From NCBI RefSeq assembly GCF_028993615.1, contig NZ_CP118632.1:2728001-2792000 (forward strand): a DNA stretch of 64,000 nt, in the 5' to 3' direction. Of this stretch, positions 44,007 to 44,566 are shown piece by piece. The first letter of the stretch is position 1; every line of letters begins with the position of its first letter. The position numbers and the translations under genes were made by a program. Origin of the DNA: Herbaspirillum sp. WKF16 (lineage in GTDB: Bacteria > Pseudomonadota > Gammaproteobacteria > Burkholderiales > Burkholderiaceae_D). The notes under the pieces are model-generated. The model was not told the origin of the DNA and ran no database searches. It was given only the letters and a program-made list of their open reading frames with translations.

Positions 44007-44033
44007 GCTCGGAAAATTCTGCCGCGCAAAAAG

Positions 44034-44064
44034 AAAAAGCCCTGTTCGATGAACAGGGCTTTTA
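44034..44064 (-). terminator. Third copy of the tRNA-Asp terminator
   Basis: On the minus strand, GCCCTGTTC pairs with GAACAGGGC across ATC and is followed by TTTTTCTTTTT. Identical to the copies at 44195-44225 and 44356-44386. Confidence 0.8.
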
Positions 44065-44199
44065 TCTGGCGGAGTGGACGGGGCTCTCCCACATGCTGCA
44101 GGCCGCGGAATCGCTTGCAAGCGATTCCCTTCTCGCCCCGCCGGGAGCCGCGCAGGCGGCTCCCTCCACTCCGCTGTTTTTGCTGCGCAAAAAGAAAAA
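44039..44199 (-). repeat. 161-bp tandem repeat, distal copy
   Basis: This unit matches 44200-44360 at 160 of 161 positions; the one difference is C at 44090 against T at 44251. It contains the last 20 bases of the tRNA-Asp gene, a perfect 22-bp palindrome around TTGCAA, a GGGAGCCGC/GCGGCTCCC hairpin and, at its edge, the tRNA terminator. A short partial match (GCGCAAAAAGAAAAA) continues to its left. No mobility gene is present. Confidence 0.93.
44067..44172 (-). ncRNA. Candidate tRNA-like RNA, distal copy (106 nt)
   Basis: Read leftward, the segment begins GGAGTGGA and ends TCCACTCCGCCA. The ends therefore pair as an 8-bp acceptor-like stem with a GCCA overhang, reproducing the tRNA-Asp acceptor stem. 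Inside are two hairpins (GGGAGCCGC/GCGGCTCCC and GGAATCGC/GCGATTCC) and a GGGGC/GCCCC helix. It lacks normal D, anticodon and T arms. Expression is unproven. Confidence 0.45.
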
Positions 44200-44225
44200 G
44201 CCCTGTTCGATGAACAGGGCTTTTA
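44195..44225 (-). terminator. Second copy of the tRNA-Asp terminator
   Basis: Same stem-loop and T-run as the first terminator, at the junction of the two 161-bp units. Confidence 0.8.
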
Positions 44226-44360
44226 TCTGGCGGAGTGGACGGGGCTCTCCTACATGCTGCAGGCCGCGGAATCGCTTGCAAGCGATTCCCTTCTCGCCCC
44301 GCCGGGAGCCGCGCAGGCGGCTCCCTCCACTCCGCTGTTTTTGCTGCGCAAAAAGAAAAA
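44200..44360 (-). repeat. 161-bp tandem repeat, proximal copy
   Basis: First full unit behind tRNA-Asp, almost identical to 44039-44199. The boundary with the tRNA is seamless: the tRNA 3' end and terminator (44361-44408) form the start of a third, partial unit, and similarity stops inside the T arm. Each unit has conserved hairpins, which suggests that selection or recent duplication keeps them alike. Confidence 0.93.
44228..44333 (-). ncRNA. Candidate tRNA-like RNA, proximal copy (106 nt)
   Basis: Same fold as the distal copy, with one base different in a predicted unpaired segment (A for G on the RNA strand). It would be transcribed by read-through from tRNA-Asp past the first terminator and could be released by tRNA-processing enzymes that recognise the acceptor stem. 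This is inference from sequence. Confidence 0.45.
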
Positions 44361-44386
44361 GCCCTGTTCGATGAACAGGGCTTTTA
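44356..44386 (-). terminator. First terminator after tRNA-Asp
   Basis: GCCCTGTTC/GAACAGGGC stem with an ATC loop, followed on the minus strand by TTTTTCTTTTT, just behind the CCA end of tRNA-Asp. Confidence 0.85.
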
Positions 44387-44388
44387 TC

Positions 44389-44465
44389 TGGCGGAGTGGA
44401 CGGGGCTCGAACCCGCGACCCCCGGCGTGACAGGCCGGTATTCTAACCAACTGAACTACCACTCC
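44389..44465 (-). tRNA. tRNA-Asp (GTC)
   Basis: 77 bases including encoded CCA. The acceptor stem is GGAGTGG/CCACTCC, the D arm contains AGTTCAGTTGGTTAGAAT, the anticodon loop is CTGTCAC with anticodon GTC, and the T arm is CGGGTTCGAGCCCCG-like. It follows tRNA-Val on the same strand after 25 bases, so the two are probably one transcript. Confidence 0.97.
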
Positions 44466-44490: not shown

Positions 44491-44566
44491 TGGTGGGCGC
44501 TGAGAGGCTCGAACTCCCGACCTAAGCCTTGTAAGGGCTCCGCTCTACCAACTGAGCTAAGCGCCC
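44491..44566 (-). tRNA. tRNA-Val (TAC)
   Basis: 76 bases including encoded CCA. The acceptor stem is GGGCGCT/AGCGCCC, the anticodon stem-loop is GCCCTTACAAGGC with anticodon TAC and the T loop has GTTCGAG. First tRNA of the Val-Asp pair, 46 bases after hupB. Confidence 0.97.

Follow-up and report, generated by a model that had tools for sequence, protein, structure and literature searches.

The rtT repeats are best known from one Escherichia coli locus, and their role is poorly understood. In E. coli K-12, four matches to the Rfam family RtT (RF00391) lie at tyrT/tyrV with a spacing of 178 bp, and the tyrT unit consists of a complement of the tRNA-Tyr end (GGGGAAGGAT), the motif GAGAAG, hairpins and a copy of that end (AATCCTTCCCCCACCACCA). 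The annotated RttR RNA of E. coli has its 3′ end at the final base of the CCA of this copy, and the computed fold of the whole unit (z = –0.85) was no better than those of shuffles. Across the species, RtT units occupied 1 to 9 places per genome (median 2) in 4,680 of 5,426 genomes.

According to the accessible portions of the cited papers, tyrT releases RtT as an RNA that has been tied to the stringent response, and the Actinobacillus RtT adjoins tRNA-Asn and tRNA-Lys genes (PMC4986893). In addition, rtT-like clusters overlap BIMEs (PMC2965389), RtT contains a tandem GA motif (PMC7657543), and the E. coli rrA, rrB and rrF small RNAs lie between two rRNA-operon terminators (PMC8144298). As far as their accessible portions go, open-licence PMC papers held no report of tRNA-matched arms or of the element described below.

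A tandem array downstream of tRNA-Asp

In the 64,000-nt stretch of the Herbaspirillum sp. WKF16 genome analysed here (the window), TRF revealed a single array at 44020-44408 with a period of 161 bp, 2.4 copies and 99% matches, confirming the tandem units 3′ of tRNA-Asp on which the original prediction was built. Scored against the first unit, the units at 44039-44199 and 44200-44360 matched at 100% and 99%, so that the two full units indeed differ by one substitution, as had been claimed. The third array match (44361-44408) comprises the terminator and the last 20 bases of tRNA-Asp and is, again as foreseen, the tRNA end itself. The features concerned are as follows:

44491..44566, minus strand: tRNA-Val(TAC), the upstream tRNA of the same cluster (ARAGORN, Rfam tRNA)
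44389..44465, minus strand: tRNA-Asp(GTC), the host tRNA, of which nt 56-76 (44389-44409) are copied in the units (ARAGORN, Rfam tRNA)
44357..44385, minus strand: terminator 1, in the trailer of the real tRNA-Asp (terminator-like site)
44200..44360, minus strand: repeat unit 1, in the register of the original prediction (TRF, unit alignment)
44196..44224, minus strand: terminator 2 (terminator-like site)
44039..44199, minus strand: repeat unit 2 (unit alignment)
44035..44063, minus strand: terminator 3 (terminator-like site)

The three terminator-like sequences are identical and, together with the unit alignments, they bear out that every unit carries a terminator and the last 20 bases of tRNA-Asp. 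An exact 63-bp direct repeat, composed of these 20 bases and 43 bases of the trailer, lies on both sides of each 98-bp insert. The sole promoter-like site found is located outside the array, and a terminator stands between tRNA-Asp and each unit in the window. The tRNA-Val/tRNA-Asp pair, whose order recurs in relatives, is flanked in one direction by hupB, lon and clpX and in the other by a chaperone-usher cluster that includes two SCPU-domain genes.

Because the genome is a single contig of 4,986,464 bp, its second tRNA-Asp locus has its own two units (4361001-4361152 and 4361168-4361319, each 92% identical), and units also occur in other species, the array is unlikely to be an assembly artefact. 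Specifically, the search of related genomes that the original prediction had proposed recovered one or two units at the tRNA-Asp of other species.

Each unit closes a tRNA-like structure

The original prediction had recognised the repeats, the tail copy and the terminators correctly, and had overlooked an inverted arm, the hairpins, the other host tRNAs and the spread of the element through the family. In tRNA sense, the insert carries the acceptor-strand complement GGAGTGG, a single A, a hairpin of 9 bp with the loop CUGC and the T-stem strand complement; these are followed by a palindrome of 20 bases, the sequence GCGG, another, short hairpin and the tail copy (tRNA nt 56-76, CCA included). 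Each unit thereby holds a complement of the tRNA 3′ end that is interrupted by hairpin 1 and pairs with the tail copy, enclosing two more hairpins. The order of the parts is that of a tRNA, i.e. acceptor strand, D/anticodon substitute, T-stem strand, enlarged T loop, T-stem strand, acceptor strand and CCA. The parts were placed as follows:

44327..44333, minus strand: acceptor arm of unit 1, complement of tRNA nt 66-72 (sequence, fold, aligned register)
44304..44325, minus strand: hairpin 1 of unit 1, 9 bp, CUGC loop, in place of the D and anticodon arms (fold, sequence, alignment)
44293..44302, minus strand: T-stem arm of unit 1, complement of tRNA nt 59-65, then GAG opposite AGA (purine mismatches; fold, sequence, alignment)
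44269..44288, minus strand: hairpin 2 of unit 1, a perfect palindrome (fold, sequence, alignment)
44249..44263, minus strand: hairpin 3 of unit 1, 5 bp, conserved G-U pair (fold, sequence, alignment)
44228..44248, minus strand: copy of tRNA nt 56-76 with CCA in unit 1, 20/21 identical (sequence, tail-copy screen)
44166..44172, minus strand: acceptor arm of unit 2 (unit 1 position minus 161)
44143..44164, minus strand: hairpin 1 of unit 2 (sequence)
44108..44127, minus strand: hairpin 2 of unit 2 (sequence)
44088..44102, minus strand: hairpin 3 of unit 2 (sequence)
44067..44087, minus strand: copy of tRNA nt 56-76 with CCA in unit 2, 20/21 identical (sequence, tail-copy screen)

The only difference between the two units falls in hairpin 3, where the pair is retained (U-A to U-G). 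The computed fold of the unit reached –88.5 kcal/mol (z = –6.3), and none of 200 shuffles was as good. A degenerate whole tRNA, that is a tRNA pseudogene, is excluded, as the copy covers nt 56-76 only and a conserved hairpin replaces the D and anticodon arms.

Covariation was assessed in an alignment (A1) of 28 hand-picked sequences out of 33 picked, with L032, L047, L052, L065 and L074 left out, and with three cut instances and eight degenerate loci dropped before alignment. Among these 28 sequences, 27 of the 40 pairs showed change on both sides, and 165 cells carried a double change versus 54.6 in column shuffles. Moreover, 92% of the cells were paired, compared with 35-43% when the partners were slid. 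Changes on both sides were seen in 6/8 pairs of the acceptor helix, 9/9 of hairpin 1, 5/10 of the T helix, 6/8 of hairpin 2 and 1/5 of hairpin 3. This covariation supports the predicted closed structure of the unit.

Tail copy and arms follow the host tRNA

In almost all cases examined the element is rebuilt from the adjacent tRNA, which the tail copy and, mostly, the 5′ arm follow. Of 344 distinct tRNA genes, mostly taken from loci chosen for holding the element and thus no measure of its prevalence, 118 had a tail copy of at least 17/21. The first copy was identical to the adjacent tRNA at 21/21 positions in 90 of them and at 20/21 in 22, which brings 112 of the 118 to 20-21 identical bases, while the tail of another amino acid's tRNA matched in only 56 of 1711 tries. 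In 99 tRNA-Asp elements, drawn as in the other tracking counts from related species and so not independent events, the copy equalled the gene at the variable nt 60 in all 99 and at the variable nt 68 in 98, and the 5′ arm paired with nt 60 in 97 (93 Watson-Crick, 4 G-U).

With the acceptor arm in a fixed register, 5.59 of 7 positions paired with the element's own copy, compared with 3.69 for copies belonging to tRNAs of other amino acids, and at least 5/7 were paired in 91 of 123 elements versus 34% upon swapping. T-stem arms paired at 4.42/5 with their own copy versus 3.72/5 with swapped ones, but these arms, like those of the nt 60 count, were placed by best pairing with their own copy, which biases the comparison towards it. 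An exact complement of at least 8 bases preceded 81 of 140 copies; in 2800 swapped and 2800 shuffled controls it was present 348 and 180 times, respectively. Fewer than 5/7 acceptor positions were paired in the remaining 32 of the 123 elements, several Massilia loci included, and some Herbaspirillum copies are devoid of the CCA end, indicating that neither feature is strictly needed.

Two sets of loci with altered tails were observed in addition. Elements of the Asp type (L031, L054, L078) and the Glu type (L052, L076, L080, L085, L086, L088) have a common altered 3′ end across several species, in which the tail copy is lost or replaced (e.g. GGACGCGCAGCGTTCGTTA) and the hairpins are retained though the CCA end is gone. 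In the distal unit of L013 and in L022, the tail copy carries common changes (TGCCGCTGC instead of GTCCGCTCC) and the arm shows no compensation.

Occurrence in the genome, genus, family and order

A covariance model built here (R1) found eight units at five tRNA loci of the WKF16 genome itself, hosted by two tRNA-Asp, two tRNA-Leu(CAG) and one tRNA-Glu. A model-free tail-copy screen covered 38 distinct tRNA genes there, with identical ones entered once (the genome has 56 tRNA matches overall), and detected ungapped copies behind three, namely tRNA-Asp and both tRNA-Leu(CAG). No ungapped copy was found behind the other 35, two of which have an altered copy: that of the second tRNA-Asp lacks one base, and that of a tRNA-Glu is truncated.

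Within the genus, the core pattern was present in 30 of 34 genomes, and the reversed control pattern gave one match overall. At up to four substitutions and any distance, the loci collected yielded 71 distinct core instances, 64 of which had a tRNA upstream on the same strand (Asp 36, Glu 15, Ser 13); the remaining seven comprise four that begin close to the end of a contig and three decayed ones. R1 matched 115 of 195 genomes of the family, in 28 of 44 genera. At the level of the order it matched 14 of 300 genomes, of which eight do not belong to the family, and some of these matches were weak. Of 29 loci checked (L111-L139), 28 had a same-strand tRNA 35-179 nt upstream, and the 29th starts 144 nt from a contig end. 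The matches listed in the contig scan (80 of 120 stretches) included Massilia, Herminiimonas, Burkholderia, Cupriavidus, Noviherbaspirillum, Undibacterium, Oxalicibacterium, Telluria and others, and some of these listed matches were chance hits within genes of unrelated bacteria. Overall, the hosts are tRNA-Asp, tRNA-Glu, tRNA-Ser (GCT, GGA, TGA, CGA), tRNA-Leu(CAG) and tRNA-Arg(CCG), with partial elements behind Thr(TGT) and SeC tRNAs outside the family.

A separate array of seven 139-bp tandem units (95% matches, with inverted repeats) was noticed in the WKF16 genome about 90 bp downstream of the tRNA-Glu element (L110:4290-5263, C1 about 1751290-1752263). Rfam microRNA models matched it on both strands below the gathering score.

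The elements remain with their tRNAs

We compared 56 positions of hairpin 1 and the core among 61 instances from the genus. Instances at the same tRNA in different genomes differed at 7.4 positions, whereas instances at different tRNAs within a genome differed at 18.2 and those for which both tRNA and genome were different at 19.5; for the same tRNA type within a genome the figure was 3.2. The cores therefore cluster by tRNA rather than by genome, suggesting that the elements stay with their tRNAs, with no recent hopping seen between tRNA types. In 80 of the 118 tRNA genes with a copy, and in none of the shuffles, the trailer after the copy equalled that after the gene (at least 30/40 bases), as tandem duplication would produce. 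Arrays of two to five near-identical copies stand behind 16 of the 118. The repeated trailer, together with the way in which the copies follow tRNA-Asp variants across species, supports the recent duplication or homogenisation that had been proposed for the near-identical units.

The window contains no integrase, and each of the genome's five PF00589 matches is located beyond its limits and more than 40 kb from every element. There is no gene or cargo in the 98-bp insert. A blastn search with both units against 50,697 phage and 72,556 plasmid records returned no match, which disfavours a phage or plasmid origin and, along with the distant integrases, agrees with the earlier judgement that a phage attachment remnant was less likely. 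Mobilisation by a RAYT was also rejected: the genome holds one PF01797 gene (Y1, RAYT-like), the core is absent from its 3.3-kb locus at up to seven substitutions, and the only two inverted-repeat places at that locus are unrelated to the core.

Two elements without a tRNA deserve mention. At L055 (G005:C1:2111179-2112694), an element of the tRNA-Ser(GCT) type is found without its tRNA, preceded by a 14-base tRNA-Ser end and trailer; its own tail copy is decayed and an integrase match lies about 1 kb away. Because the tRNA is absent from the 7 kb examined at this locus, an island insertion is probable. In a Lacisediminimonas MAG (L202:7120-7225), a solitary element with no tRNA ahead sits where a truncated integrase meets the end of an EAL-domain gene. 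It is possibly a trace of movement; however, with these flanks we rejected an insertion into an integrase gene, and the locus gives no clean evidence of transposition.

RNA or DNA

Counts of wobble pairs were rechecked with a fixed acceptor register and Watson-Crick-only placement of the arms. In hairpin 3, a G-U pair in tRNA sense was present in 25 of the 28 aligned sequences, and a further count gave 134 G-U and no A-C cells for this hairpin. The T-stem contained 96 G-U versus 11 A-C (105 versus 14 for the T helix overall). This excess stems from nt 64 and 65, which alone account for 91 G-U and 2 A-C, compared with 14 G-U and 12 A-C at the other eight T-helix positions, and the argument for RNA from wobble pairs is therefore weak. 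Unselected acceptor arms gave 55 G-U and 60 A-C in the fixed register, and 24 G-U and 46 A-C under best-pairing placement. Hairpins 1 and 2 are nearly all Watson-Crick (G-U in 5 of 1104 and 5 of 1163 cells), which fits DNA palindromes or correction by template switching.

This recheck lowered our confidence in an RNA from somewhat above even to somewhat below it and made an element acting at the DNA level a little less improbable than before. It also moved a selfish element slightly upward and an attachment-site origin minutely so, at a level that stays very low, and turned a phylum-wide class of tRNA-end-tracking RNAs from unlikely into more unlikely.

Origin and possible role

The explanation that we favour, with a confidence just short of even, is a resident, vertically inherited, RtT-like structured element, the tail of which is kept equal to the host tRNA and which perhaps acts as RNA. 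We infer such action, and its mode, from the sequences. Read-through of terminator 1 would give an RNA containing the unit, and the tRNA-like end of this RNA might be trimmed at the CCA by tRNA 3′ maturation enzymes, a step proposed on account of where the annotated E. coli RttR ends. Recombination between the direct repeats could keep the tail copy equal to the tRNA gene, the 5′ arm would follow through selection for pairing, and unequal exchange would expand and contract the array. The product is likely, yet this is a guess, to serve as a small RNA or as a decoy for proteins that handle tRNA 3′ ends. A wider reading, which we consider rather unlikely, is that there is a class of tRNA-end-tracking RNAs across Pseudomonadota, with RtT elsewhere in the class and in one family outside it, and an undescribed branch in Burkholderiaceae. 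Each copy would then rebuild the acceptor/T-arm end of its own host, be matured like a tRNA end and act as a tRNA-specific decoy or sensor for the enzymes of that tRNA.

The array might alternatively be the work of a miniature selfish element living at tRNA 3′ ends. Such an element would insert downstream of a tRNA, preserve the gene by duplicating its end, and maintain itself through tandem duplication. The 63-bp direct repeat bounding each insert in the window, the trailer repeated in 80 of 118 cases, arrays of up to five near-identical units, the occurrence of one core behind several tRNAs and the solitary copy by a truncated integrase in the Lacisediminimonas MAG are all in keeping with this. 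However, the clustering of cores by tRNA shows no recent hopping between tRNA types, phage and plasmid records lack a match, and the locus of the sole Y1-type gene is without the core. We also know of no enzyme that copies its target's own end into both arms, and overall we deem a selfish element unlikely. Still less probable to us is that the palindromes act as DNA behind a highly transcribed tRNA, as sites for protein binding or supercoiling or as back-up terminators, in the manner of BIME/REP. Near-perfect palindromes with scarcely any G-U pairs, acceptor arms without wobble bias, repeated terminators and, in the accessible text of PMC2965389, the link of rtT-like clusters to BIMEs agree with such a role, which nevertheless leaves unexplained why arms and tail copy the neighbouring tRNA and why hairpin 3 has a conserved sense-strand G-U, and which also has to face the tRNA ahead of 28 of 29 loci checked.

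Att sites typically show a tRNA 3′ end as a direct repeat, and the tRNA-Ser end remnant ahead of the G005 element, with its integrase match nearby, would suit a remnant of phage or island attachment sites. We nonetheless give such a remnant very little probability: the repeats recur at a distance of 161 bp and enclose a conserved structured core, the genome's own integrases and the phage and plasmid records argue against it as described above, and so do R1 matches in 115 of 195 family genomes (counted irrespective of any islands at the individual loci). As to a meaningless recent tandem duplication that arose by chance, the one-base difference between the two units speaks for it, whereas covariation across species and the core in 30 of 34 genus genomes refute it, leaving it practically negligible.

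These results have several implications. The RtT plan occurs behind ten tRNA anticodons in Burkholderiales (two of them with partial elements) and behind several more in RtT relatives, the rule that copy and arm follow the host tRNA is open to test by mutation, and natural variants reveal which parts are kept and which are dispensable. R1 now provides a covariance model where a search of Rfam gave no corresponding family. For annotation, additional CCA-ended tRNA tails could mislead att-site calls, the mapping of tRNA fragments and assembly.

Comparison with known systems

The element resembles tRNA-targeted integrative elements in that the tRNA 3′ end is repeated on both sides, and differs from them in its 98-bp insert, which has a conserved structured core and neither integrase nor cargo; with no integrase nearby and no cargo between the repeats, it does not belong to phage or island attachment sites. 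Like BIME/REP sequences with RAYT, it comprises short intergenic palindromes, but it is tied to tRNA genes and has tRNA-matched arms, and all eight model matches in the WKF16 genome lie behind tRNAs. Membership of REP/BIME with RAYT was rejected, given the lack of dispersed copies and a sole RAYT-like gene without flanking core. In the accessible text on rrA, rrB and rrF, a stable-RNA operon is likewise followed by a terminator, a short RNA segment and a second terminator, yet that text does not mention tRNA end copies or matched arms for them.

By score, the element is not a member of RtT (RF00391). The RtT model had no match at the gathering score in the window, where only tRNA was found, and it had none in the whole genome; no Rfam family matched the window array. 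At E<=1, five element loci likewise gave no RtT match, which appeared in E. coli only. Conversely, R1 reached a best E of 0.07 on 15 of the 31 RtT loci, and because none did better we do not claim homology. The core sequence and the set of hairpins differ, as does the spacing (178 versus 161 bp), and the RtT folds seen had no hairpin splitting the arm, unlike the element of the window.

Across the phylum, the RtT model matched 46 of 398 genomes, with 29 of these exceeding the Rfam cut-off, and a tail copy was present in 23 of 30 fetched loci, behind Tyr, Pro, Lys, Gln and Ser tRNAs. With E. coli included, complements of at least 8 bases lay ahead of 28 of 33 RtT copies, versus 48 of 570 with swapped tRNAs and 31 of 660 in shuffled sequence, so matching arms are also a property of RtT. 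As a side observation, RtT matches lay behind Ser and Gln tRNAs in f79, a family with draft genomes of 1-3 Mb that belongs to another class than the window (L321-L332 and others), several of these loci with matching arms.

Both RtT and the present element consist of tandem units downstream of a tRNA gene, with a CCA-bearing copy of its 3′ end and a variable copy number. In both, an upstream complement of the tRNA end closes a multi-hairpin structure (the acceptor arm being weak in 32 of 123 elements), and a purine stretch (GAGAAG-like) lies by the T-stem arm; the tandem GA motif described for RtT is comparable to the purine mismatches by the T-stem in the Asp-type element of Herbaspirillum. 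So far as our searches go, the element represents an undescribed RtT-like family of Burkholderiaceae that is built on the same plan and falls outside RtT by score. The parallel with E. coli tyrT drawn in the original prediction thus holds and goes deeper than was claimed, with a common plan of 3′-end complement, structured core and CCA-ended copy in tandem.
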